Source: a virus
Length of the DNA stretch: 30,443 bases
IMG/VR virus record: IMGVR_UViG_3300020109_000092
Coordinates: 1 to 30,443 of that record
Reading direction: 5' to 3' (one strand)
This document shows positions 4,019 through 29,578 of the stretch, in pieces. Both the position numbers and the translations under genes were made by a program. Under the pieces are notes generated by a model. The model saw only the letters and a list, made by a program, of their open reading frames with translations. It was not told the DNA's origin and searched no databases. Position 1 is the stretch's first letter; the number at the start of each line of letters is the position of its first letter.

Positions 4019-5361
4019 TGAATAAATTTTTTCTAATAACTGGATATACTGCAGGGGCGACAGGTTCCCAACTGAGTTACAGTCAAGTGTTGCAATCTAC
4101 AAATTTACAGTTATTTAGTATTCCTACTTCTAATATTAGCTTAGGAATAAATAGAAAAAATTGGATCAGAGGAGGACAATATGTTCCGTATTCCAAATCA
4201 AATTCTCAAGAATCTTATGTGTTTCACAACGAAAAGGTGTATTTGTGTATAAGCAATAACGATAAAAATATAAAAAATATATCAAATTCTTCCAGATATG
4301 TTCCGATTCATACTTCAGGCATCGTTCAGTATCCAGACGGGTATTCTTGGTTATATTTGTACAAAATTACAGCAAATGTACAGAATATGGTCAACAGTAA
4401 TACGATTCCTGCTCCAAGTACATACGGTCTAAAAAATTTAGTAATAAACAGAGAAACAGATGATATCGATTGCGGACTAACTGCAGGAATAACTGGAACG
4501 TGTGCAATTTATTTAATGAATTCTGATAAAACTTCTGCAAGTCTGATACATCAAACTGGATTGTCTTGTTCTATTTGTTTGAATATTGCAGAAGAGACAA
4601 CAAAGACTGATTTATTAACAACAATTTTTTATTCGACTGGAGTTACACCAGACGGAACAATACTGATAAAATCTACTCAAGATTTTTTAGAAAATTATAT
4701 AACAGGAAAAAAAATAGATTCTGATTTAAATTTTGAGGCACAATGTTATGAAATTGGAAAATCTTCTGGTCTTTCAGCGGGTGCAATATTGTCTGCTCAA
4801 ATAAGTCTGACACAAATAGAAGGAGTGTCTTCTGAATATTTGTTATTAACTAATTCAGAACTTCCTATAACAATTCCCGGAGGAACTGATGCCAGTGCAT
4901 CTTTTATTACTACACCAATCAGTAATAAAAATAAAATCATAGGAATACGCTTGACTGGTTCTGGATACGGATATGTACCAGAACAACTACGAGTTAGTTT
5001 AACTGGTATATCGGATTCAACAAAAAGAACAACAATAGAAAATGCAATTCATTTAACTGGAACATCACCATCATTAACTTTCACTAATCTGAATTCTATT
5101 TTTGATGCAGCTTCTATAAATTCAATAGGTACCGATAGTGTTATTCGAATAGTAAACGCACAGATAGACTCACATTCTCCCAACACCAATTTTTACGGAT
5201 TGGTAGAAGCAGATTCGTTTACCCCGGAAACAATAGCCGAATTGTGTCCTACTAGTTTAAAAATATATCCGTATTCTACTAGTGGTCTTACATTTGGTAG
5301 AGAATATTTAAATCTAATATTTAATAAACCCGTAAGTCAAACTGAAATACTAATGAGATAA
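4018..5361 (+). CDS. 8: Baseplate wedge protein, gp8-like
   Basis: I chose the ATG at 4018 (TAATG overlap with the upstream stop) over an in-frame GTG at 4009; the product is then 447 residues. The N-terminal third follows T4 gp8: an early RGGQYVPY segment (51-58), then YVFHNEKVYLCISN (67-80), and YPDGYSWLYLYKI (105-117), which corresponds to GDGYVWEYLFEI in T4 gp8. gp8 forms the outer wedge frame with gp7 and gp10. The later half is not alignable by eye and adds about 110 residues over T4 gp8 (334 aa). The TAA stop (5359-5361) lies inside a GATAAATA late-promoter-like box for the next gene. Confidence 0.78.
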   Translation: MNKFFLITGYTAGATGSQLSYSQVLQSTNLQLFSIPTSNISLGINRKNWIRGGQYVPYSKSNSQESYVFHNEKVYLCISNNDKNIKNISNSSRYVPIHTSGIVQYPDGYSWLYLYKITANVQNMVNSNTIPAPSTYGLKNLVINRETDDIDCGLTAGITGTCAIYLMNSDKTSASLIHQTGLSCSICLNIAEETTKTDLLTTIFYSTGVTPDGTILIKSTQDFLENYITGKKIDSDLNFEAQCYEIGKSSGLSAGAILSAQISLTQIEGVSSEYLLLTNSELPITIPGGTDASASFITTPISNKNKIIGIRLTGSGYGYVPEQLRVSLTGISDSTKRTTIENAIHLTGTSPSLTFTNLNSIFDAASINSIGTDSVIRIVNAQIDSHSPNTNFYGLVEADSFTPETIAELCPTSLKIYPYSTSGLTFGREYLNLIFNKPVSQTEILMR

Positions 5362-5364
5362 ATA
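5357..5364 (+). promoter_or_regulatory. Late-promoter-like box GATAAATA
   Basis: The octamer differs from the T4 late consensus TATAAATA by one base and matches the NATAAATA motif described for T4-like cyanophages. It overlaps the stop of the gp8-like gene and ends 5 nt before the ATG at 5370. No Shine-Dalgarno separates it from the start. Confidence 0.45.
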
Positions 5365-5369
5365 CAAAT

Positions 5370-6053
5370 ATGGAAAAATCGCCCTTCTCAATCAATACAC
5401 CACTTTCATCATTTCCGTATAATTCCAGAACGGGTGTAAACGAATTTGATCCCAACACTGATTCTAAAAATTATGTACTACATGGGTTTAAACCAGGATA
5501 TCCACTTCAAGCTTCAGAATTAAATGAAGTTCAAGAAAATTACTATAAAAATTTAACTCTATATAATATTTTACTTAAAAATTGGTTTAAAATTGGACAA
5601 ATGATTCCTGGAGATACTACACAACCCATAAGAGGCCCGTCTTGGATGGGAGCAGTTCCTTTACATCCTGACATGATCGAAATATCTTCTGGAAGTGTTA
5701 CAATGACAACTGGTTGGTATCTTGTAGACGACTCCAGTGGATTAAAATTTTGGATATACAATAATAAAAATCGTTCTCTTACAGGTGCATTTCCTCAGGG
5801 CGGAGTAGTAGGATTAAATATAGAAAGAAAATATGTAACTGCTGCAGAAGATTCTACATTAAACGATAATTCTAACGGATATTCTGATTCTTCTGTCAGT
5901 TCTGGAGCTGACAGATTTCAATTAAACTTTACTGGTAATTTAGTATCTAATCTAGTACAAAACGAATCTCCAATAATTCTGAGAAGAGACATATTTGGAA
6001 TAAGTCCAGGCAAAGTATATTATTTAAATAATCTATTAATAACAACATTATAA
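5370..6053 (+). CDS. Baseplate/fibre attachment protein with DUF4815-like N-terminus
   Basis: The product has 227 residues. Residues about 25-60 read FDPNTDSKNYVLHGFKPGYP then LQASELNEVQENYY. This is the 'F.PG..LQA.ELNE.Q' pattern of DUF4815-type N-termini found on baseplate-anchored fibre or wedge proteins of marine myoviruses. The rest is a beta-rich sequence with IILRRDIFGISPGKVYYLNN near the end. It sits where T4 has gene 9 (the long-tail-fibre socket), so a role in joining fibres to the wedge is plausible, but a gp9 relationship is not shown by sequence. It follows the gp8-like gene after 8 bp and has its own late-promoter-like box. Confidence 0.62.
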   Translation: MEKSPFSINTPLSSFPYNSRTGVNEFDPNTDSKNYVLHGFKPGYPLQASELNEVQENYYKNLTLYNILLKNWFKIGQMIPGDTTQPIRGPSWMGAVPLHPDMIEISSGSVTMTTGWYLVDDSSGLKFWIYNNKNRSLTGAFPQGGVVGLNIERKYVTAAEDSTLNDNSNGYSDSSVSSGADRFQLNFTGNLVSNLVQNESPIILRRDIFGISPGKVYYLNNLLITTL

Positions 6054-6056
6054 ATA
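6049..6056 (+). promoter_or_regulatory. T4-type late promoter box TATAAATA
   Basis: This is a perfect match to the T4 late promoter -10 octamer. It overlaps the end of the preceding gene (TAA at 6051-6053) and ends 7 nt before the ATG at 6064. If transcription starts about 6 nt downstream of the octamer, as in T4, the mRNA would begin almost at the start codon. Confidence 0.6.
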
Positions 6057-6063
6057 AAATAAT

Positions 6064-8199
6064 ATGCCATTTCCCGATCTAACTAAACTTCAGTCCACTA
6101 ATACGTTTCAGACATTATTTCAAAGAAACAATCAAGTTATTGACAGAATTAATGATTTAAAAATTGGAACCATTGCATCTGACGGCAGTATTATAATTTC
6201 AGGACCTGGATCTAGTGGAGGAGTGACACTAGGAATCAATAATATAACCACCCTGAATACAATAATAGGATTGAGTGGTTCATCTAATATTGTTGTATCA
6301 GGCAGTGTTCCTGGTGGACTAACACTTAATTCGCCTATTGGTATAAGTGGTACTGAATTGGGAAAAGTAACAAGTTCTGATGCAGCTTCTGCCAGAAAAT
6401 TCGTTGGATTTATAAGCGGTATATCAGGAAACGATTCTTATACTGTAACAGTCTCGGGTCGAATAAAAAATACAGGATTAGCAGATAATACTCTGTTTTA
6501 TTTAAACTCCGATGGTACATTGACTGATACAAGGCCCACAAGTGACGGAACCGTAATTAAACCTGTATTTCTAAACATTGGAGCAACACTCGGAGGCATT
6601 GTTCTTCAACAACAAGAACAACAAAATACAGCATTATCTAATTATACCAAGTCTGCATCCAGAACGATTGCGGAAATATCTACTAATCCAGGACTAACAC
6701 TGGGTAACGTTGTTTATTATGACGTCACCGGAACTACCTGGGCAAAATCTCAAGCAAATGCTTCTGTTTCTTCTGAAGTATTTGGTATTGTGGAAAGTAT
6801 TGCGGGTGCAACTGCTATAATAGTAACTCACGGTTCTGTCAATGTACCCAATAGTATTTTAAATTCAATGGGAGCAGGCGGTGCAGGAGGAAATGATATA
6901 TGGTTTCTTTCTGCCTCTACAGGAGGGCAATTACAAAATCAGGCACCAAATGACGCTGGACATATAATTAAACCAATATTTTATCAATATCCACACGAAA
7001 TGGGAGGAGTCACATTTAGTGGATATCTTATCAACTATATTGGTTATGCAGTAGGAGGAACAGTAGACGATTTAGCCTCTCCAGAAGGATCAAATGAAAT
7101 AAGACTTGGAGAGTTTAAACAAGTTTCATTTCACGGAAACAGATTAGGATTTGCTCAAGACTGGTTAACTACTTTTCTAGAACTAATACAGCAAAATAAT
7201 ACTCCAGCTACTAGTGTTCCTTGGTTAAAATCTGTTCCTTATGAATTGAATGAATCTGGTTTATTGGATGATTATACTAGTAGAAGTTATATTGAATTAT
7301 CTGGTGGCTTAATATTGACTGAAGAGAAAGGTGATATTAGTGAAAAAAGTACATTAACCGATTCTGATGCAATTGGTATCAATTGTTTGCTTACTACAAC
7401 TAACAGTAGAAGTTCGTTGAGTACGCCATACTCTTCTTTTCAAGACATTCCACTCAATAGATTTATAGATTACGGAGTTTCACATATATGTAAAATTAAA
7501 TCAGATGTCAATTGGGCCAATGCACAAAATTCAGATGCTCAAGACCGATGGGCACAATTAAAACGATTGTGGTTCAGCAAAACAGATCTATCTGGAAATA
7601 ATGTTAAAGTATTAAACTGGGCTAATGCTAATCTAGTATTGTCTGAGTCTATTGCCACAGATAGAACTCATTTTGGGGATTTTCAAGGCACACAACAAGG
7701 AATTCAACAAACTGATATTAATAAATTGACTACAAGATTGCAAGATAAATTGAAAACAGACATCTTAACCTCATTTTATTTGCCAGGTTTTATTCTGAAA
7801 CGCAGAGGAGGAGTGCAATTTCCGGCTCCTAATATATCAAATGACTCCGGAATTATACCATTATATTCGGATTGGATGGGTACTGTTTCAGAAGAAATAG
7901 GATTTTATATTCCTCGTCAAGGAGATTTAATTTATATTTATTCTCCGTGGTGGGCAATAAAAAATCAAAAATGGAACATTCGAACTATAGATCTATATAA
8001 ATTTTTAAATAATTGTTGTCGCTCTGCTGATAATCAAATAGACTGGACCATAACAACACGCGAAAATTCGTTTCCGACACAACAATCGCAATCATTTAGT
8101 TTACAGTTAACATCCGATCAATTGTTAAAATCTGTTATAGGTATACAATTACCTAATTATTCTAGCCAAGGATATAAAACCTTAATGAGAGTATTATGA
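6064..8199 (+). CDS. Large baseplate/tail-fibre structural protein
   Basis: This 711-residue protein starts with DLTKLQSTNTFQTLFQRNNQ and VIDRINDLKIG, a short helical N-terminus seen on wedge or fibre proteins of marine T4-like phages. It is followed by Gly/Ser-rich beta sequence. Residues about 100-185 (KVTSSDAASARKFVGFISG...) and 210-330 (GNVVYYDVTGTTWAKSQANA...) look like two rounds of a fibre-shaft domain in which a property value is followed by a 'VFGIVESI' strand. The C-terminal ~350 residues are mixed and Trp-rich with no family I recognise. By position it could fill the role of gp10. It ends one base before the ATG of the 1899-residue gene. Confidence 0.6.
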   Translation: MPFPDLTKLQSTNTFQTLFQRNNQVIDRINDLKIGTIASDGSIIISGPGSSGGVTLGINNITTLNTIIGLSGSSNIVVSGSVPGGLTLNSPIGISGTELGKVTSSDAASARKFVGFISGISGNDSYTVTVSGRIKNTGLADNTLFYLNSDGTLTDTRPTSDGTVIKPVFLNIGATLGGIVLQQQEQQNTALSNYTKSASRTIAEISTNPGLTLGNVVYYDVTGTTWAKSQANASVSSEVFGIVESIAGATAIIVTHGSVNVPNSILNSMGAGGAGGNDIWFLSASTGGQLQNQAPNDAGHIIKPIFYQYPHEMGGVTFSGYLINYIGYAVGGTVDDLASPEGSNEIRLGEFKQVSFHGNRLGFAQDWLTTFLELIQQNNTPATSVPWLKSVPYELNESGLLDDYTSRSYIELSGGLILTEEKGDISEKSTLTDSDAIGINCLLTTTNSRSSLSTPYSSFQDIPLNRFIDYGVSHICKIKSDVNWANAQNSDAQDRWAQLKRLWFSKTDLSGNNVKVLNWANANLVLSESIATDRTHFGDFQGTQQGIQQTDINKLTTRLQDKLKTDILTSFYLPGFILKRRGGVQFPAPNISNDSGIIPLYSDWMGTVSEEIGFYIPRQGDLIYIYSPWWAIKNQKWNIRTIDLYKFLNNCCRSADNQIDWTITTRENSFPTQQSQSFSLQLTSDQLLKSVIGIQLPNYSSQGYKTLMRVL

Positions 8200-11200: not shown

Positions 11201-13900
11201 AATAATATACAACCGAATAGAGGACTTCGTACAGATTCACATCTTGTAACAATATCAGGACTTAGATTATACTATTCAGATGAAACTACTAAAGTTTTTG
11301 TAAATGGAAATGAAGTTTTAGTAACCAATTCAACAGAAAATCAATTACAAATTGTTGTTCCACCTTCTCAGAGTTCTGGATCGGTTCCTATTAAGGTTCA
11401 AAGATCCGAAGGACCATGGCCGGCGGATGGTGATGGTATTCAAGAAACAACAATAACTCAAGGCTTCGAGTATACCCAAATTCCTGTACCAACCATAACC
11501 AATGTTAATCCTAATAATGGTCCTACTACCGGCGGAACATCTATAATAATTACCGGTACAAATTTTGTTAATGTAAGTTCTGTTCGTGTTGGAGGAGTTG
11601 CTGCTGTGACCTACACCGTTAACTCCTCAACACAAATAACTGCAACGACTCCGCTTGGTACAGCCGGAAATCAACCGATAGTAGTCACCACCCAAACCGG
11701 TTCTGCTAGTATACTATTTACATATACAGTTCCTCAACCAACCATAACCAATGTTAATCCTAGTAGTGGTCCTACTACCGGCGGAACACCTATAACAATT
11801 ACCGGTACAAATTTTGTTGGTGTATCTTCTGTTACTGTTGGAGGAGTTGCTGTGACCTACACCGTTAACTCCTCAACACAAATAACTGCAACGACTCCGC
11901 TTGGTACAGCCGGAAATCAACCGATAGTAGTCACCACCCAAACCGGTTCTGCTAGTATACTATTTACATATACAGTTCCTCAACCAACCATAACCAGTGT
12001 TAATCCTGATAATGGATGGGGTAAACCAGATTATGGTGGTCAATCTGATCGTCCAGCAACTAGTGTTACGATAACAGGATCTAATTTAGATGATTGCACT
12101 GTTAAAATAGGAAATAAGGATTGTGTTATAACAAATCAATCTTCTGGTAGCATAACTATCGATGTTCCAGTGCAAACAGATGGATTTGAAGGTCCGCTGT
12201 CATTAACAGTCAATAGAACTGGTGCAACATCAGTTACTAGAACCTTTACCTATACATTGCCTCCTCCATTACTTAAAATAATTAACGGATTCCATGATAT
12301 TTCACCAACATCTTGTGTTTATACAGGAGGATGTGTTATTCAGGCTAACGGATGGTATCTTAAAAATTCTTCAAATCAAAGTCGTGTTGTCTTTAGTACC
12401 CAGCCTCAAATCGAAGTTCAATGTAATTCTGACTCTACTAGAAATCAATTAAAATTTATCAGTCCTATGGTTTCAGTTTCTGATATAGGACTATGCGATT
12501 TAACGTTTAAGAGACATGATAATCAAGGCGACGACTCTGACGATTATTTTACTTTTACTTCAAGTCAAACTCCTCTGCAGATCACTTCAGTTAGTCCTAA
12601 TGAGGGACCTATGGGTGGCGGAAATACGATAACAATAACAGGACAGGACTTTACTCAAAATGAAGGAGTAAATCAAGTCTTGATAGGAGGAGTAAATTGT
12701 GACACTGTCGATGTTTTAAATTCTACCACAGTAACTGCAATAGTTCCTGGTTCGAGTTCGCCTGGAACGCGAAGCGTCCAAGTCAAGAACGCATATCAAC
12801 AGTCTAATGTGTTAGGCAATGCCTACACTTATACAACTCCATGCCCACAACCTAATGCAATTGCACCAAATAATGGACCAGCTTGTTCATCAACTGGAGT
12901 TAATTTTACAATTACTGGTTTGAATTTCCAAGAAATAAATAAAATTATATTTAATAATGATCCTAGTCTTTCTGCCACTAACATTAGTGTCCATACTAAT
13001 GGAAAGTCTTTGACAGCTATAACACCAGTTCAATTCCCTCTTACGACATGGGATCTGCCATTAACGGTTACAGTAATAAAACCCGGATGTACTGATACAA
13101 CCTTAAATGCTCGATATACTCCACGCAGTGCAAATTACACCATAACTAGTGCAACATGGCAAAATACAATATGTGTTGGTTCAGGAAATTTTGGACAATT
13201 AAATATTGCCGGAAACAATTTTACAGATCAAGGAATACACAGAGTATCATTGCAGAAGATAGGTGGTAATTCAATAATTGCTACATCGTTTATCATCGAC
13301 ACGTCAAATCTGATAACAGCTCAATTCAACACTCCTGTACAATCAGGATCATGGAAAGTTTATGTAGAAACTCCATGCCATAGTCAATATTATCAGTTAT
13401 CTGATATTTCAGATTGTTATTCGATATGCAGTGGCATACTGAACCACCGGGTGCCCGTGAGTTTCCAGGGCACTGTCATCAACTTCGTCACGAGTGAGAT
13501 CGAAAACGCGCCGGCGAATAGCATTCCTGGGTGGGATGTCAATCCCTACGGCACGAGCGATACCAGTGTGGCTCTGCTGGCAGGAGCTGGCACAGGGATC
13601 ATGCGAAACCCTAACGCAGGCACAAGCACCTTCCGCACCAATCTCGCGCTCGGTACCGTGGTCGGCCCCTCGGCATTCTTCTACATCAGCTCCGCCGCCG
13701 CCATTGGAACTTCGGTTGGCCAGTGGACAGCAAACTCCATTGGCTACTTCGGAGTCAAGTTCAAAAACGAGGCGACAAATACGACCCACTACGGTTATGT
13801 AGCGATGCGAATCGGTGCAAATGCCACCGACCGAGAAATTGTTGGATACTGTTGGAATCCTACACCAAATGTTTCAATAACAGTTCAAGAAATAGTATGA
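8201..13900 (+). CDS. Giant multi-domain adhesin: collagen-like start, dockerin-like loop, TIG/Ig array, GC-rich tip
   Basis: The 1899-residue product has these parts in order. (a) A collagen-like GERGPTGATGSTGPIG stretch at about 16-37. (b) An unassigned beta-rich region. (c) A dockerin-like segment: LLTLLLAAW, then DLNNDEIVDATD at 374-385, then VTIAFASW. (d) A Pro-rich hinge at about 420-428. (e) About 14 Ig-like units from roughly residue 428 to 1740, of which nine or ten are clear IPT/TIG domains (pattern 'P..GP..GG..I.ITG..F......V.IGG'). Two adjacent units are almost identical in DNA. (f) A 156-residue C-terminal tip encoded by GC-rich DNA, with GYFGVKF, THYGYVAMRIG and a last GYCWNPTP motif. 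The HYGYV pattern recalls bacterial surface domains ending in 'HYGW'. No signal peptide is present, as expected for a virion protein. Likely a long receptor-binding fibre. Confidence 0.78.
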   Translation: MSSSFIYPNYIIGVCGERGPTGATGSTGPIGSIGNSGLNVFGTTGPGVTGWTGHYSLFSAPFRALEGITVQIGNHIGLRFVNHFTDGTVVLSSGNPFIGFTGFWFVQAGATCPGCTFSPVVSTNNTSYFKFSDNVDYDPLSTKKSTITLKTINTRTPETIGITLTDDLKNIRVKYTDYGGITLFGVTAQALVIGIGETAAAGATGSRWYGDENVVDWVTRQALEGITSISGITTDGSDAFYPIDTKNNSIFQIKKSELNSIKIEIQEDNTISPDESKSLLLIIPLETAFTGAFEINGANPIQVYFPLNVIPKPEPGINVYSAISYGRDWYMNCVGLGITQDYWSKQNLKIDNLYLPSDSLLTLLLAAWRTPSYDLNNDEIVDATDVTIAFASWQQDLFQPYYKNCVNITGISYGRECIGPVPPPPQPPPTLASVEPATGPELGGTDITITGTGFTGANSVKVGSNLATDLRVIDPTIIQAKTPFGSGPQQITVTTPDGSATGLSFVYSGNPPALPTITSVIPQNGHRYGGDEIKIYGTNLDTTIQVVIQDREAEIIEKNTGLVKVKTRGGNVGSARIKLDNAEGRVEHDGWSYRQAVPPIIISIDPNTGPADGGYSIIITGQHFNQVESVRIGSHECLDQNIISSQQIKATVPSGQGSQPLTVQTYEGSDSKPFTYQGNSPPLPVIDEVVPDHGPIEGGTVVQLRGQNLNYQGTLTVTIGGVEVEITSRTDDLVTITTPPSTEATQQELRFSAENGTETKTFTYNPTSPMIQSITTQVGNQTLDNQLKTTPSEPNQTVCIYGQNFMGQYPVNKINIKSAHPDGIEGIYSPFSIVQPVTPVDDTKIVFQLEGVPFEHNHRVMITAIKSNDIESNEFPTNWKVDGIISSIKLDSDTTLSAPYGIGIGETPVIKVYGTYMDAKNDQSGFDYSGIQRGESGITCTDSRLFEQYNDIYFKVKLPAITTKGEYKFWRRRKRDILGESISTLQLPNQFIYYQPAPQINNIQPNRGLRTDSHLVTISGLRLYYSDETTKVFVNGNEVLVTNSTENQLQIVVPPSQSSGSVPIKVQRSEGPWPADGDGIQETTITQGFEYTQIPVPTITNVNPNNGPTTGGTSIIITGTNFVNVSSVRVGGVAAVTYTVNSSTQITATTPLGTAGNQPIVVTTQTGSASILFTYTVPQPTITNVNPSSGPTTGGTPITITGTNFVGVSSVTVGGVAVTYTVNSSTQITATTPLGTAGNQPIVVTTQTGSASILFTYTVPQPTITSVNPDNGWGKPDYGGQSDRPATSVTITGSNLDDCTVKIGNKDCVITNQSSGSITIDVPVQTDGFEGPLSLTVNRTGATSVTRTFTYTLPPPLLKIINGFHDISPTSCVYTGGCVIQANGWYLKNSSNQSRVVFSTQPQIEVQCNSDSTRNQLKFISPMVSVSDIGLCDLTFKRHDNQGDDSDDYFTFTSSQTPLQITSVSPNEGPMGGGNTITITGQDFTQNEGVNQVLIGGVNCDTVDVLNSTTVTAIVPGSSSPGTRSVQVKNAYQQSNVLGNAYTYTTPCPQPNAIAPNNGPACSSTGVNFTITGLNFQEINKIIFNNDPSLSATNISVHTNGKSLTAITPVQFPLTTWDLPLTVTVIKPGCTDTTLNARYTPRSANYTITSATWQNTICVGSGNFGQLNIAGNNFTDQGIHRVSLQKIGGNSIIATSFIIDTSNLITAQFNTPVQSGSWKVYVETPCHSQYYQLSDISDCYSICSGILNHRVPVSFQGTVINFVTSEIENAPANSIPGWDVNPYGTSDTSVALLAGAGTGIMRNPNAGTSTFRTNLALGTVVGPSAFFYISSAAAIGTSVGQWTANSIGYFGVKFKNEATNTTHYGYVAMRIGANATDREIVGYCWNPTPNVSITVQEIV
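11489..11983 (+). repeat. Near-identical tandem duplication of a TIG-domain unit
   Basis: Two consecutive copies, 11489-11737 (249 bp, 83 codons) and 11738-11983 (246 bp, 82 codons), differ at a handful of codons in their first half. From GCTGTGACC onward they are identical for roughly 150 bp by eye, extending into the first bases of the following unit. The one-codon length difference is an extra GCT in the first copy. The neighbouring TIG units are far more diverged, so this is a recent duplication or gene-conversion event. Confidence 0.9.
13436..13830 (+). other. GC-rich segment encoding the C-terminal tip of the 1899-residue protein
   Basis: By hand count the 60-base rows from 13441 to 13740 are 57-63% G+C, falling to about 50% by 13860, while the row just before (13381-13440) is 30%. 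Codon choice shifts with it (GCC, CTC, GGC, CGC). The reading frame continues unbroken through both borders. This is the signature of a transferred domain fused in frame to a phage-type stalk. Confidence 0.8.
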
Positions 13901-13906
13901 TAAATA
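13899..13906 (+). promoter_or_regulatory. Late-promoter-like box GATAAATA
   Basis: The octamer overlaps the TGA stop of the 1899-residue gene and ends 7 nt before the ATG at 13914. No Shine-Dalgarno is visible between it and the start. Another ATG at 13909 is out of frame. Confidence 0.45.
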
Positions 13907-20000: not shown

Positions 20001-20894
20001 ATGGAAACTCCATGTCAAGAAAAATGTTATGAGTTGCCTGAGATTCCAATATGCGAGATCATATGCAAAGAATGCAATCATCCAGTCCCCCCCACAGGCA
20101 GTTTTGTTGATCAATACTTTACAGGTCTAAGAACTCACATTGATATACCCAACGGTCTGATCTTCAATGCTAATAGCGTAGCTGGTGTGAACGCTAATAC
20201 CTCCGTCTACAATCAATTAGCTGTTGGTGTGACAATCGGATGTCCCCCCTCCCCGATCACGGGACAACAATTCCCCCCAGCGTTTAAGTATGTGAGTCAA
20301 TTTGTTTTGAGCCAATCTAGGGGCAATGCCCCGTCAGCGATCGACCCCGGGGTGCTTGCGGGGCTGCACGGCCACATGAAAACCCCAGGGGTAACAGGCC
20401 CCGATGAGGTTTTCCCATGTTGTCAACCATATGGATGTCAACCATCAGGCGAACCAGAGAACTGCTGCGGGTATTCTGTATGGAACCGCACCAACCTCCC
20501 TGTCGGTACCCAGGTCGGTGAATATCGTAATGACCAGACTACAGTCAACAAGTGGTACAACGCGAATTGTGAAGGACCAGTATGTTCCTTTAATTGTAAT
20601 GAAGAGAACGAACAATGTTGGGGAATGTTCGGTGGGCCAAGCGGTCGGGTTCGGCAGCAATGCACGATTGGAAATATACCCGGTCAGTGGCCAGCAGGAG
20701 TTAATACAGGTTACTATGGAGTCAGACTTCAGCCAGTGCAGATAGGTTTCAACGTCTGGGGAGGAAATTATCGAACCCCACATTACGCTTACGTAGCGCT
20801 GAGCTTTGGACCAAACCCTAACGATCTAACAGTTAAAGGATTCTGCTGGAATCCTGATCCGGGGATTCCAATAATAGTTCAACCAATAGGATAA
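17049..20894 (+). CDS. Giant virion adhesin, paralogue of the 1899-residue protein at its C-terminus
   Basis: The product has 1281 residues. The N-terminal ~110 residues are rich in Cys, with a Pro run (GGGPPPPPVPG) and a module FGRCCGDDTVQCGGFCPYWW. A large central region (about 130-630) is unlike anything I recognise. A flexible GGGGLDGGGSGSGG linker begins near 642. Two Ig/TIG-like domains follow (about 770-1010) and align with the last two units of the 8201 product: TITGLNFQEINKIIF versus KIKGKNLDRVTNVYF, and WKVYVETPCHSQYYQL versus WKVCMETPCQEKCYEL. The C-terminal tip starts after CNHPVPP, is encoded by GC-rich DNA, and ends GFCWNPDPG, matching GYCWNPTPN in the other protein. It starts one base after the preceding stop. 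Confidence 0.72.
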   Translation: MGIGGPEVHGYCYGSIVGPDAFPHSLLACLCKILEGNGVPCPCNLCTVQDVLACAGGGPPPPPVPGDPCSMHFGRCCGDDTVQCGGFCPYWWESCEMCFPCVAGGGGGNTFNYIPPIGVSGPPGDLYHYVSPDLEDEPQANVKEVYPFMPGTLVPWCPGECPGPDPSTVFIKCPQKCSDLPYKWAVKLGPPPPCDDTITVQLGGWNLADLFSPNLISDGDNSQIVPKQAWLGEPNLFNKNIGSNPIRSLGPDGWYVVNNRGLGIVQEPDTVLYPSAVGVENQPNKRIILEWQDPNSVSAPGDYLQVAVGSKYGTIIHSNAANLMDNLIDEYTFKGSTGLNEPDYSSLFFWPINGQIVYDNGLLRDDKKIRISARNYKSPFSFNEFNIPYYISSASTTAGDVFATLWSNTKKNPYRSFGMNLYYLKDDPSSELNGITWQLNGGTAQKQAYGIRPDLILWKFAHQLYPEAFTRGYTNCEGFTYTNQQCDGREWSGFMGQTFMEECDSNQVPTSLYYKQVSLSSDFALVTLAHYEPQYDEDLLKISDSQIHEVGRQVWENRREQARWLFMISTTNEYRTVPLINTDTVTPHSILDPVKEDVRTRLLTFNEMDTIHYYGFTLENGSHVKIPDYDNDVCRFCNPPVESGGGGLDGGGSGSGGQTENNYIINPLACMTSSLSGFTSCFKEEIEFGDSNHPIWNTKTDGRPDMPYVYVLDALAHAKTFDNDAESASWDWIDANTLNAVLSWTDRLDQITKKFVKLYEGDFLPWHDCLDVVPFTGPPTNYKAFPPEGPWCSDTATIVKIKGKNLDRVTNVYFSNKPGTIVGVADSEDYENQILTVKTPLQFDVEDQDIPVDIKLINPPCKDFIIPSAYTPLTLNSTEMHGATWYYYYFDGHGEPALTGKVQRPWICASPTSNENNVFQQLIISGTNISKKLGINKVSLQKEGAAPILADNFIIKVEGAHGDDPVMVVFFDDAQVQPGVWKVCMETPCQEKCYELPEIPICEIICKECNHPVPPTGSFVDQYFTGLRTHIDIPNGLIFNANSVAGVNANTSVYNQLAVGVTIGCPPSPITGQQFPPAFKYVSQFVLSQSRGNAPSAIDPGVLAGLHGHMKTPGVTGPDEVFPCCQPYGCQPSGEPENCCGYSVWNRTNLPVGTQVGEYRNDQTTVNKWYNANCEGPVCSFNCNEENEQCWGMFGGPSGRVRQQCTIGNIPGQWPAGVNTGYYGVRLQPVQIGFNVWGGNYRTPHYAYVALSFGPNPNDLTVKGFCWNPDPGIPIIVQPIG
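20080..20700 (+). other. GC-rich segment encoding the C-terminal tip of the 1281-residue protein
   Basis: Rows inside this stretch reach 60% (20221-20280) to 68% G+C (20341-20400) by hand count, well above the AT-rich DNA before it. They contain C and G runs (such as CCCCCC) rare elsewhere in the window. Composition relaxes gradually after about 20560. The reading frame stays open throughout. The position matches the GC-rich tip of the 1899-residue protein, directly after a conserved C...IC...NH.VP junction. Confidence 0.72.
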
Positions 20895-20897
20895 ATA
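20890..20897 (+). promoter_or_regulatory. Late-promoter-like box GATAAATA
   Basis: The octamer overlaps the stop of the 1281-residue gene and ends 5 nt before the ATG at 20903. The sequence around it resembles that after the 1899-residue gene, so the two paralogous genes share their downstream control element as well as their last codons. Confidence 0.45.
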
Positions 20898-22338: not shown

Positions 22339-22346
22339 TCTAAATA
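22339..22346 (+). promoter_or_regulatory. Late-promoter-like box TCTAAATA
   Basis: This octamer differs from TATAAATA at one position. It ends 5 nt before the ATG at 22352, the same spacing seen at several other genes here. It lies in a 27-bp gap with no Shine-Dalgarno. Confidence 0.35.
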
Positions 22347-25962: not shown

Positions 25963-26607
25963 ATGGGATGTGGTTGTAATAAAAATAAAAACTCTGAAAA
26001 ATCCTGCACCGGCTCGGATTGTCCGTCAAAAAAGGCAGTAAAAGAAATTACAATCGAACATTTGATTGAACCCGTTTCTGATATAAATACCCGTAGTGTT
26101 CCTGTTTGGGTAAAACAAAAAGGTTATAATATGGATGAAGAATTTAAAAAACGAGAAGTGACGCCTTCAAATCCAATTGCAAAAGGATTTGGAATGGCAA
26201 CAAGTTTTATTAGTGCAATAGCATCAAAAGGACTTAGTGAAGAAAAAGTAAACATTCCCCTAAAACAATTACGAGTATTGAGTTGTTTTGGAAATAGAGA
26301 ATCGGGTGGAGTATTGCCTGCTTGTGAATACCTACAAACAAGTGCGACACCAGGAAAATTCTTTTGTGGAGGATGTGGTTGTGGAGATAAGCCTCTTACT
26401 TGGTTAAACGGCACTGCAGACGAATACAGTAAACTAGATTATCCAAAACTTGCCTGTCCTCTTCAAATGCCTGGATTTTCTAATTATAAAGAATCTGCAC
26501 CAGAAGAATCTGTTGCACCAGTTACTCGTCGAGCCTATATCGAAAAGATGAAATTTGAAGAATTAAACTCGGTTCCAGTAACCATGCCAGAAGATCCCAA
26601 GAGTTAA
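25963..26607 (+). CDS. Conserved-looking hypothetical protein with cysteine clusters
   Basis: The 214-residue product begins MGCGCNKNKN with further Cys at about 15 and 20. A second cluster FFCGGCGCGDKPLTWL (C135, C138, C140) is followed by LACPLQMPGF (C165). The C-x2-C-x-C spacing plus a later Cys suggests metal binding, most simply zinc, rather than the disulfide modules of the upstream genes. A short Ala/Gly/Ser segment (FGMATSFISAIASKG, about 74-88) is amphipathic or weakly hydrophobic. It is the last gene before the gp13 promoter and may be a virion or assembly protein. I do not recognise the family. Confidence 0.55.
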   Translation: MGCGCNKNKNSEKSCTGSDCPSKKAVKEITIEHLIEPVSDINTRSVPVWVKQKGYNMDEEFKKREVTPSNPIAKGFGMATSFISAIASKGLSEEKVNIPLKQLRVLSCFGNRESGGVLPACEYLQTSATPGKFFCGGCGCGDKPLTWLNGTADEYSKLDYPKLACPLQMPGFSNYKESAPEESVAPVTRRAYIEKMKFEELNSVPVTMPEDPKS

Positions 26608-26624
26608 ATATTTTCAAGTGAAGG

Positions 26625-26660
26625 CCCAGCTCCTTATAAATAAAATGGAGCAATAATGGG
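26625..26660 (+). promoter_or_regulatory. Potential hairpin covering the gp13 ribosome-binding site, with a late promoter in its loop
   Basis: GCTCC (26629-26633) can pair with GGAGC (26647-26651), enclosing TATAAATA in the loop. CCCA (26625-26628) can then pair with TGGG (26657-26660) across a 5-nt bulge. The right arm contains the GGAG Shine-Dalgarno and part of the start codon. Read-through transcripts would therefore have the site masked, whereas transcripts started at the internal box would lack the left arm. Confidence 0.45.
26635..26642 (+). promoter_or_regulatory. T4-type late promoter box TATAAATA before gp13
   Basis: This perfect T4 late octamer lies in the largest intergenic gap of the window (26608-26655). 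It ends 13 nt before the ATG at 26656, leaving room for the GGAG Shine-Dalgarno at 26647-26650. It should drive gp13 and the downstream neck and terminase genes. Confidence 0.65.
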
Positions 26661-27459
26661 AAATATTAACTCAAAAGATAAAATTATTAAATACGCGCTT
26701 CGGGCATTAGGTCATCCTGTAATAGACATCAACGTAGATCACGAACAATGTCTGGATCGCGTAGACGACGCACTAGAATTATTTGCAGAACGACACTTTG
26801 ATGGAGTAGAAAAAGTGTATTTTCGTCATACCATGACCGAAGATAATATACAAAAACGATATATTGATACAGAAACCTTATCTAATCCTACCGGCATAAC
26901 AGGAGACGGACCTGACGGAACAACTATAGTAAGTGTTGTAAAGTTGTTTCGTTTTAGTAATTTTTCTAATATTAATATGTTTGATATCAGATATCAACTT
27001 GCCCTAACAGATTATTTTGGTATCAATAGAGGATTGGCCTCTCAATCCTCACTTGGTCTTCCTCAATACAGTGCAACAAAACGATATATTAATTTAGTTG
27101 AACAATTTTTTGCTCCAGAAAAATCTATAAGATTCAGTAAAGTTAAAAACAGAATTTATATTGACGGATCCATGGAAGAATTGTCAGCAGGTGCAGTTAT
27201 GGTTATTGAGGCATATGCTGCACTAGATCCAAACAAATACAATGAAATATACGATGACAGATTATTGAAAAAATATGTTACTGCCCTAATTAAACGACAG
27301 TGGGGAGCAAATATGTCAAAATTTGATGGAGTTCAATTGCCTGGTGGAATCACTACTCGAGGCGCTGCAATTCAACAAGAGGCAGTACAAGAAATAGAAT
27401 TGATCGAAAACGAGATAAGAGGAACACACGAACTACCTTCTGACTTTTTCATAGGATAA
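26656..27459 (+). CDS. 13: Neck protein gp13
   Basis: The 267-residue product matches the T4 gp13 head-closure family. These proteins form a ring under the portal after DNA packaging and, with gp14, make the site where the tail docks. The N-terminal signature is clear: INSKDKIIKYALRALGHPVIDINVDHEQCLDRVDDALELF, then HFDGVEKVYFRH. T4 gp13 is slightly longer (309 aa). The start is supported by GGAG five bases upstream. It is followed after 3 bp by gp14, and the order gp13-14-15-16-17 is that of T4. Transcription probably starts from the TATAAATA immediately upstream. Confidence 0.93.
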   Translation: MGNINSKDKIIKYALRALGHPVIDINVDHEQCLDRVDDALELFAERHFDGVEKVYFRHTMTEDNIQKRYIDTETLSNPTGITGDGPDGTTIVSVVKLFRFSNFSNINMFDIRYQLALTDYFGINRGLASQSSLGLPQYSATKRYINLVEQFFAPEKSIRFSKVKNRIYIDGSMEELSAGAVMVIEAYAALDPNKYNEIYDDRLLKKYVTALIKRQWGANMSKFDGVQLPGGITTRGAAIQQEAVQEIELIENEIRGTHELPSDFFIG

Positions 27460-27462
27460 TGT

Positions 27463-28401
27463 ATGGCGACAAATCCGTATTTCAGATCATACGATTCTGA
27501 TCGAGAACAAAAACTCATCAATGAATTGACTGTTGAAACTATTCGTGCAATGGGTCGAGATGTTCTGTATATTCCTAGAGATTATTTGAATATAGACAAC
27601 ATATTCGGAGAAGATCCGGAAGCAAAATTTACCCAAGGATATCCGATAGAGGCCTATCTGGTAGACGTGGATCGATTTCAAGGAAACCGAGACGTTATTG
27701 CAAAATTTGGTGTACAAATAACAGATCGTTGTACTATACTATTATCTAAAACCAGATTCGAAGAAGAAATAAAACTTAAAAGAACAGAGATACTCAAGCC
27801 TCGTGCTGGAGATTTAATATATCTTCCTCTTTCCAAGTCTTTGTTTGAAATCAATTATGTAGAAGACGAATTTCCATTTTATCAATTAGGCGGATTAACT
27901 ACATATGCTCTTACTCTGGAACTGTTCACATACGACGGAGAAACCATCGATGTTGGAGTTACCGATGTAGATGTCATAGAAACAGAAAGAAAAACTCCTG
28001 CCATTATATCGTATATTCACGGAAGTCCTATTACTGGATCAAATGAAATTAGAGACGGCGAATTAGTATTTCAAGTATTAGGAGTAACCGGGCCCGGTTC
28101 TACTTTAGCAAATGCAACAGCAACTGCTACAGTAGTAGATATTATTCACGGCACGACAATGAACGCACTGTATCTGTCTGGAATTAGTGGTGCCTTCTCT
28201 TATAGTCAAACTCAAACCGTTAAGGGAAGTGTATCAGGTGCAGAATATTACTTCCGAGTAGCAGGAACATCCAGTGACAGAATAATTCCAACAGATCCGT
28301 TTACCGGTAAAAATGTAAACGATAATAATGATTTGAAACAGTCTACAATGACCATTTTTGATTTTACTGATATTGATCCGTTTTCTGAAGGAAATTATTA
28401 A
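27463..28401 (+). CDS. 14: Neck protein gp14
   Basis: The 312-residue product belongs to the gp14 family, which caps the neck with gp13 and allows the completed tail to join the head. Characteristic features are the start ATNPYFRSYDSDREQKLINEL, the VYIPR-like segment VLYIPRDYLNIDNIFGED, and RFEEE within the first ~110 residues. Length is a little above T4 gp14 (256 aa), the extra lying in a Gly/Thr-rich insertion at about 190-250 (TGPGSTLANATATATVV). The stop overlaps the gp15 ATG by one base. Confidence 0.92.
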   Translation: MATNPYFRSYDSDREQKLINELTVETIRAMGRDVLYIPRDYLNIDNIFGEDPEAKFTQGYPIEAYLVDVDRFQGNRDVIAKFGVQITDRCTILLSKTRFEEEIKLKRTEILKPRAGDLIYLPLSKSLFEINYVEDEFPFYQLGGLTTYALTLELFTYDGETIDVGVTDVDVIETERKTPAIISYIHGSPITGSNEIRDGELVFQVLGVTGPGSTLANATATATVVDIIHGTTMNALYLSGISGAFSYSQTQTVKGSVSGAEYYFRVAGTSSDRIIPTDPFTGKNVNDNNDLKQSTMTIFDFTDIDPFSEGNY

Positions 28402-29147
28402 TGTTTAATCAGATTTTAGAAAGCGGGTTTGACGATATTATTAAAAAGCATGTTATTGCATTCGGTTCGTTGTTTAGTTCTGTTTATACCATGACTGAAA
28501 GAAATGGCCAAACAGAAAAAAGAAGAGTTCCAATATCATTTGGTCCAAAAGAAAAATTTATTCAAATAATTATAAACGAAAGTGGTCTAACAGATAAAAC
28601 CCATATTCAAATGGATTTACCGAGAATGGGATTTGAGCTAATAAACATTCAGTATGATCCTGGACGAAGATTGAACAAACTACAAAAGAAAACAAAAATT
28701 ATTAATAATGTTCGAAAACAAGCCTTTTCAGAATCTCCATATAATTTTACATTTGCTCTGTATGTGTTTTCTAGAAGTATGCAACACAATTTACAAGTAA
28801 TTGAACAAATTGCTCCATATTTTACTCCAGACTTTACTGTTACCATGAATATGAATGAACTGTATCAACGAGTAGATGTTCCTATTGTTCTAATGGACAT
28901 AGATATTAACGAAGATTATGAAGGATCATTCGATCAGCGTAGATCAATAGTTTCTGTGTTACAGTTTAATATGAAAGGTTACATTTACTCACCCATAAAA
29001 ACTAATACTACTGCTGTTATTGAAACTAGTGACATTAATTTGTTTGATGGCTTAACTGGAAATGATTTTATTTTAGATATTGGATATACCGGAGACGCTG
29101 ATATTGGTCCGTCAAGTATTATTTGGTCTCCCGAAGGAGATCCATGA
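28401..29147 (+). CDS. 15: Tail completion / sheath stabiliser protein gp15
   Basis: The 248-residue product matches T4 gp15, which forms the hexameric ring closing the top of the tail tube and sheath and docking onto the neck. Visible family features are HVIAFGSLFSSVYTMTERN, RRVPISFGPKEKFIQ and PRMGFELINIQYDPGRRLNK in the first ~100 residues. AAGGA about eight bases before the ATG supports the start. The final bases carry the Shine-Dalgarno (GAAGGAGA) for gp16, and the stop overlaps its ATG. Family members include gp3-like tube terminators, but the position between gp14 and gp16 favours gp15. Confidence 0.9.
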   Translation: MFNQILESGFDDIIKKHVIAFGSLFSSVYTMTERNGQTEKRRVPISFGPKEKFIQIIINESGLTDKTHIQMDLPRMGFELINIQYDPGRRLNKLQKKTKIINNVRKQAFSESPYNFTFALYVFSRSMQHNLQVIEQIAPYFTPDFTVTMNMNELYQRVDVPIVLMDIDINEDYEGSFDQRRSIVSVLQFNMKGYIYSPIKTNTTAVIETSDINLFDGLTGNDFILDIGYTGDADIGPSSIIWSPEGDP

Positions 29148-29578
29148 AATCTAGTAATGAAAAAATATCAGATGCACTGAATATTGAATTTACACCAGAA
29201 GAAACTACTTCAATAGTTAAACCTGTTGCAGAAAAAGAGTCTACAGATTTAACAGGAGATTTTAATTCTGCGCGAAGTAATATTTCTTCTCTGATTGATA
29301 CTGGAATGACTGCATTAGACGGAATATTAAAGGTGGCAACAGAATCTGATTCTCCGAGAGCATATGAAGTATTATCTAATATGATCAAAACTTTAAGTGA
29401 AATGAATAAAGATCTGATGGATATACACGAGAAAATGTCAAATACGGAATCCAAAAAGATTACAGTTAAAAATACAACAAACAATTCAATATATGTCGGA
29501 TCTACTAGTGATCTTCAAAATTTAATTAACAGAGAAAGAAGTCCGTTAAAAGTTTTTGAAGAAGAGGATAAAGAATGA
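29144..29578 (+). CDS. 16: Terminase small subunit gp16
   Basis: I chose the ATG at 29144, four bases inside gp15 (ATGA) and preceded by GAAGGAGA, rather than an in-frame TTG at 29123. The 144-residue product fits T4 gp16 (164 aa), the ring-forming subunit that recognises DNA and stimulates the gp17 ATPase. The central helical region (about 40-98), with ISSLIDTGMTALDGILKVA and SPRAYEVLSNMIKTLSEMNK, is the coiled-coil oligomerisation core typical of the family. The stop overlaps the gp17 ATG (ATGA). Confidence 0.9.
   Translation: MKSSNEKISDALNIEFTPEETTSIVKPVAEKESTDLTGDFNSARSNISSLIDTGMTALDGILKVATESDSPRAYEVLSNMIKTLSEMNKDLMDIHEKMSNTESKKITVKNTTNNSIYVGSTSDLQNLINRERSPLKVFEEEDKE

Follow-up and report, generated by a model that had tools for sequence, protein, structure and literature searches.

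A probable promoter-choice translational switch at the neck gene gp13 of uncultured T4-like phages

We present here an RNA hairpin that covers the Shine-Dalgarno (SD) sequence of the first neck gene, gp13, in an uncultured T4-like phage, and that probably acts as a cis-acting translational switch of the T4 gene e type, in which the promoter used would decide whether gp13 is translated. The window, which is the whole stretch of DNA analyzed, is a 30.4-kb viral contig (30,443 nt) carrying gp13, gp14, gp15, and gp16 consecutively from position 26656. What the analysis shows is the fold itself, how it is conserved and covaries, that it is specific to gp13, and a computed contrast between long and short RNAs; these are described below together with the gene context and with other readings of the same sequence.

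The gp13 leader and its surroundings

The leader and the genes around it are on the plus strand. The gene under the proposed control, gp13 (26656 to 27459, ATG at 26656 to 26658), encodes a neck protein, or head-tail adaptor Ad2, of 267 amino acids (PHROG 211, E 2.4e-34). It is followed by the genes for the head closure protein Hc2, gp14 (27463 to 28401; PHROG 460, E 9e-63), the tail sheath stabilizer gp15 (28401 to 29147; PHROG 227, E 5e-55), and the terminase small subunit gp16 (29144 to 29578, with an ATG start predicted from the sequence; PHROG 445, E 1.5e-36). These matches, with the sequence, bear out the placement of the hairpin before the neck and terminase genes that had been proposed in the first-pass annotation. 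A terminator-like stem-loop, GAGGATTGG-CCTC-TCAATCCTC, is found within the gp13 coding region at 27029 to 27050.

Upstream of gp13 are baseplate wedge, tail, and BACON-domain genes, of which the recognizable ones (baseplate wedge and tail) are expected to be late themselves, and a conserved gene for a Cys-rich protein of 214 amino acids (25963 to 26607). This last gene directly precedes gp13 on the same strand; 48 nt separate its stop codon from gp13, and the stop codon is 18 nt before the hairpin. Its homologues lie upstream of gp13 in many related contigs (L309:3626-4153 and L318:903-1472 among them), and many phages that have the hairpin encode this protein, with the motif MGCxCxKNK...FCGGCGCGD...LDYPxLxCPLQMPGF, immediately before gp13. 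It has no Pfam or PHROG match, and a tblastn search of 50,697 cultured-phage records with its homologue from the 157-kb contig G036 found nothing. The photosystem gene psbA was found in none of 15 hairpin-bearing contigs.

The core of the hairpin is a 5-bp stem in which the left, anti-SD arm GCTCC (26629 to 26633) pairs with GGAGC (26647 to 26651), which holds the SD sequence GGAG. A putative late-promoter octamer of the T4 type, TATAAATA (26635 to 26642), occupies the 13-nt loop of the computed fold. An outer arm, CCCA (26625 to 26628), pairs across a 5-nt bulge with TGGG (26657 to 26660), which consists of the last two bases of the AUG and the first two of codon 2. The sequence and coordinates given earlier for 26625 to 26660 were correct, the minimum free energy (MFE) structure is exactly the one described, and both this fold and the relatives confirm that a late-type octamer lies within an SD-masking hairpin.

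Folding energy had been put forward as a check on the hairpin, over the stretch 26610 to 26670; there the MFE was -12.4 (z -1.59, 14/200 shuffles equally good), and over shorter stretches it was -12.0 for 26620 to 26665 (z -2.27, 5/200 shuffles) and -10.7 for 26625 to 26660 (z -2.71, 2/200 shuffles). The z score varies with the stretch chosen, from -1.0 to -3.2, and energy alone was not taken as proof. In isolation, the window hairpin is only moderately better than chance, which is suggestive only. We judge it to be real because relatives conserve and covary the pairing, not because of energy alone, and once that conservation and covariation count, the sequences indicate that it is much more than a chance fold. 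A further helix, GAGUUAA...UUAACUC, joins 26601 to 26613 with 26661 to 26673, so that it spans the distance between the stop codon of the preceding gene and codons 3 to 6 of gp13; it lowers the MFE to -18 (z -3.2), is absent in L010 and L013, and is not claimed as part of the device. The AT-rich window contains 6 octamers versus 4.7 expected and has no match at gathering score to any Rfam family.

Conservation, covariation, and specificity for gp13

The core hairpin is kept in relatives with 90 to 100% gp13 identity, and an SD-covering hairpin is also present at 81% and 75% identity, with different base pairs. In L013 to L016 (75%), the stem is ATTTCCTTAT-AAATAA-ATAAGGAGAT, in which a G-C pair of the window has become U-A and one C-G has become U-G; in L025 (81%), the stem CATTTTCCTTAT...ATAAGGAGAATG carries further compensatory changes. 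The covariation in relatives that had been suggested as a check was thus found, and the outcomes named beforehand as counting against the hairpin did not arise. The two parts of the originally described pairing fared differently: the 5-bp GCTCC/GGAGC core over the SD is conserved, whereas the 4-bp CCCA/TGGG extension is lineage specific, occurring only in the closest relatives, L001 to L009 and L024, and absent from L010 to L016 and L025. A late-type octamer is present within 48 nt upstream of gp13 in 51 of 71 nonredundant leaders. These relatives are metagenomic contigs and are not fully independent.

The same arrangement was recovered when 2.9 million viral contigs were scanned blindly with the pattern CTCC-TTATAAATA-N3-8-GGAG, no gene being specified. 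The scan returned at least 119 stretches, versus 12 with the left arm scrambled to CCTC, and among the matches listed, gp13 accounted for 70 of the 76 that had a downstream open reading frame of at least 50 amino acids. The outer arms, meaning the bases beyond CTCC and GGAG, were not selected by the pattern. In 42 distinct hairpins, their mean pairing run was 5.31 bp, compared to 1.89 bp when arms were swapped between phages (standard deviation, 0.32; maximum, 2.93 in 2000 trials). All 42 are complementary at the first outer pair (T-A in 32, A-T in 6, G-C in 4), and most are at the second (A-T in 22, C-G in 11, T-A in 3). On the loop-padded alignment A3, 89.9% of cells are paired, compared to 43 to 65% in slid versions, and the covariation score is 0.225, versus 0.086 in shuffles (0/500 shuffles as high). 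The aligned stems contain 18 G-U cells, so pairing at the RNA level is favored over a DNA palindrome. By its sequence, the hairpin is no single local device: many uncultured T4-like phages have it at gp13.

The effect on the ribosome-binding site was estimated from the energy needed to open the start region (-12 to +3), comparing each native leader with versions carrying the left halves of other phages' leaders. This left-half swap was used instead of a shuffle test with the octamer fixed, which misses leaders where the octamer itself is the left arm. Among 58 nonredundant gp13 leaders that have a late-type octamer, this opening cost averaged 9.06 kcal/mol for the native sequence, 6.22 after swapping, and 2.45 for the predicted late RNA (z 10.5 for native against swapped, 0/20000 permutations). 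The native cost did not exceed the swapped cost in 18 of the 58. When each 60%-identity gp13 cluster was represented by a single leader (n=19), z was 6.2. The window leader ranked 6th of 57 swaps (5/100 with SD shuffles); its start region takes 7.7 kcal/mol to open in the long RNA versus 2.8 in the predicted late RNA, and its hairpin is among the weaker ones, at 7.7 versus 14.7 to 17.4 kcal/mol in G036, G037, and T4 e.

Other octamer-bearing genes in 24 contigs gave z scores of 1.0 (n=74) and 0.2 (n=33) in the same test, gene starts being approximate in these genome-wide comparisons; the idea that all late genes are built this way is ruled out by these 107 genes. The top 5% of the swap test took in 16 of the 58 gp13 leaders versus 11 of the 107 other genes (Fisher p 0.007), and in contigs of 157, 108, and 61 kb, gp13 has a higher long-minus-short cost than any other octamer gene. 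Hairpin-bearing phages, those of these long contigs among them, encode gp55 homologues that resemble late sigma factors (E < 1e-50). No clear equivalent of the hairpin was found in twelve cultured or single-cell relatives, in Pelagibacter phage Mosig, or at T4 gp13.

A second form of the leader occurs in another large group, with L020 and L031 as examples. Here the octamer GCCATAAATA is itself the left arm and pairs with UUUAUGGC, the start of gp13 (Met-Ala, AUGGC). The pattern TGCCATAAATA-N5-17-TATGGCA had 116 matches, of which 66 were gp13, in 33 distinct contexts, counts to which shared descent contributes; a nonpairing control with TCGCATAAATA had 44 matches, none of them gp13. Some of these leaders lack an SD, and their predicted late leader is about 1 nt long. 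We put at roughly even the chance that gp13 of a large uncultured T4-like group is singled out for translation from its own promoter only, by two RNA designs used separately, one with an anti-SD arm and the octamer in the loop, the other with the octamer GCCATAAATA antisense to AUGGC. In one group of leaders (L019, L041, L046, L051, L057, L059, L061 to L066, L068, and L081), TTATACATA or a close variant replaces the octamer, often within perfect 7- to 14-bp SD-masking stems (L057, L062, L065); TTATACATA is a candidate for a variant late promoter that a divergent gp55 might use.

Octamers elsewhere in the window are placed differently. Those at 5357 to 5364, 6049 to 6056, 13899 to 13906, 20890 to 20897, and 22339 to 22346 lie at a distance of exactly 5 or 7 nt from a following ATG; a transcript begun 6 nt past such an octamer would have little or no leader. 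Among 830 gene starts from 24 contigs, an octamer-ATG distance of 5 is the peak (14, versus 1 for two anagram motifs combined), and the T4 region has no octamers at this distance from a gene start. Aquatic T4-like phages may thus possess a class of late mRNAs that lack a leader. The start of a 711-amino-acid gene at 6064, predicted to be near-leaderless, is paired with an upstream ATTATTT in the read-through RNA and shows the largest long/short difference in the window (7.9 versus 0.1 kcal/mol). In G036, a strong stem, GUCCUUGAA/UUUCGAGGAC, abuts the ATG at +69633, with an opening cost of 21 kcal/mol and no octamer nearby.

The proposed switch and rival readings

In RNA reading through from upstream, GCTCC would pair with GGAGC and hide the SD, 30S subunits would be unable to load, and gp13 would be poorly translated. 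Under the rule that a late octamer occupies -13 to -6 (PMC1524935), gp55-type late transcription from the loop octamer is predicted to start at about 26648, giving an RNA with an 8-nt leader that begins within GGAG. Across the 42 hairpins, the octamer-to-GGAG distance is 4 to 7 nt, mostly 6, so that the 5' end of late RNA would fall on the SD or immediately beside it, the left arm would be missing, and gp13 would be freely translated from such RNA. The first neck gene of the gp13-gp14-gp15-gp16 series would thus be made only from its own promoter. We infer promoter activity, the start site, and repression and release of gp13 translation from the anatomy of the leader and its conservation. The earlier claim that the late RNA would lack the left arm agrees with the predicted start; its description as simply a free leader needs amending, as the predicted mRNA begins essentially at the SD and, for a +1 at exactly 26648, would keep no more of it than GAG.

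The likely purpose would be to keep read-through of the tail-fiber, baseplate, and Cys-rich genes from affecting how much gp13 is made and when, a benefit that is not obvious because the recognizable upstream genes of the window are late. The first-pass annotation had given the same mechanism another purpose, namely a timer that blocks gp13 translation from early or middle read-through RNA until late in infection. Such a role is documented at T4 e, soc, and I-TevI (PMC3014915, PMC2988022), and metabolic genes lie just upstream of gp13 in Pelagibacter phage Mosig, though the Mosig leader has no clear hairpin. Since the upstream genes recognizable in the window encode baseplate wedge and tail proteins, expected to be late, a delay to late times is doubtful here and own-promoter-only translation fits better, leaving the timer as a possible but disfavored purpose; it would revive if the Cys-rich gene were expressed early.

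It is improbable that the hairpin is instead an intrinsic terminator of the upstream unit with an embedded late promoter, the SD pairing being a by-product. No terminator is called at the window hairpin, where GGAGC is followed by AATAATGGG with no U-run directly after the stem, and the stem has only 3 to 4 G-C pairs. A U-run does usually follow the stem in a large sub-clade of the scan (GGAGATTTTT, GGAGAGTTTT, GGAGTTTTTT), as well as in L062, L057, and L079, and the G036 hairpin is called as a terminator, on the opposite strand; yet L010 to L016, L025, and the AUG-pairing leaders keep SD or AUG pairing without one. Termination may add to the effect in the part of the family with a U-run, not in the window. 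Inverted repeats near promoters can also serve as operators, and RNA-hairpin operators are known at T4 genes 43 and 32 (PMC3014915), so that the dyad could be a site for a regulatory protein, on DNA or RNA, as in autoregulation by gp13 or control by another RNA-binding protein. We consider this very unlikely: arms, stem lengths, and loop sizes vary widely while complementarity to the SD or AUG persists, the G-U cells fit RNA better than a DNA palindrome, and in one form the octamer itself pairs with the start codon. Least credible is a reading of CTCC as an extended late-promoter element or inherited sequence whose complementarity to GGAG has no function. In relatives, the octamer and the bases on either side of it are indeed well conserved near gp13. 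Against this reading, other octamers of the same phages lack CTCC or pairing, the outer arms covary, matches to the scrambled arm are rarer by a factor of about ten or more, and the swap result persists when each 60%-identity cluster contributes a single leader.

Known systems and significance

The first-pass comparison with T4 gene e is supported by the anatomy of the leader. Both leaders have a late octamer inside an SD/AUG-masking hairpin, in both the octamer ends 13 nt before the AUG, and both have a predicted 8-nt late leader. At T4 e, roughly 100-fold repression by the structure masking the ribosome-binding site is documented (PMC3014915). Gene e differs in that it controls lysis, has a stronger stem (17.4/1.9 kcal/mol for long/short RNA in the same computation, versus 7.7/2.8 for gp13 of the window), has been demonstrated experimentally, and is reached by early transcripts, whereas gp13 of the window follows tail genes; here the device is at a neck gene and is conserved over many phages. 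At T4 soc, 49, and I-TevI and at Aeh1 mobE, the ribosome-binding site is likewise sequestered in read-through RNA and the late RNA lacks the 5' arm (PMC3014915, PMC2988022), but these are genes other than gp13, several of them for homing endonucleases, and for soc the late leader is predicted to be 24 nt long and the computed long/short difference is smaller (8.1/5.9 kcal/mol).

T4 gene 13 is orthologous, and the order gp13-gp14-gp15-gp16 is common to T4 and the window. Its leader (L158:21533-21592) has no late octamer within 60 nt, an opening cost of only 2.8 kcal/mol, and a GGGGCC-GCAA-GGCCCC hairpin before the SD. Late promoters of the T4-like cyanophages S-PM2 and Syn9, NATAAATA, belong to the same octamer family and precede late genes, and the parts of that report consulted describe no hairpin masking a ribosome-binding site (PMC2984593). 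None of the gp13 leaders of the cultured cyanophages P-HM1, Bellamy, S-CAM9, S-SSM7, S-RIM8, Syn30, DSL-LC02, and DSL-LC03 has a clear one. We found no report of such a switch at gp13 in the literature searched.

The known examples guard against early lysis or early endonuclease, whereas the gene concerned here is one structural gene, and the device is conserved with covariation at gp13 across environmental phages without being general to their late genes. The question that follows is why the phage must separate synthesis of the neck protein from transcription arriving from upstream. The combination of an anti-SD arm, a late octamer, and an SD is a signature by which late-only genes may be found in uncultured phages, and the second design would be a promoter element that doubles as a start-codon antisense. 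If gp13 is indeed singled out through both designs, the first neck gene would act as a general checkpoint between the expression of tail genes and that of head-neck genes.
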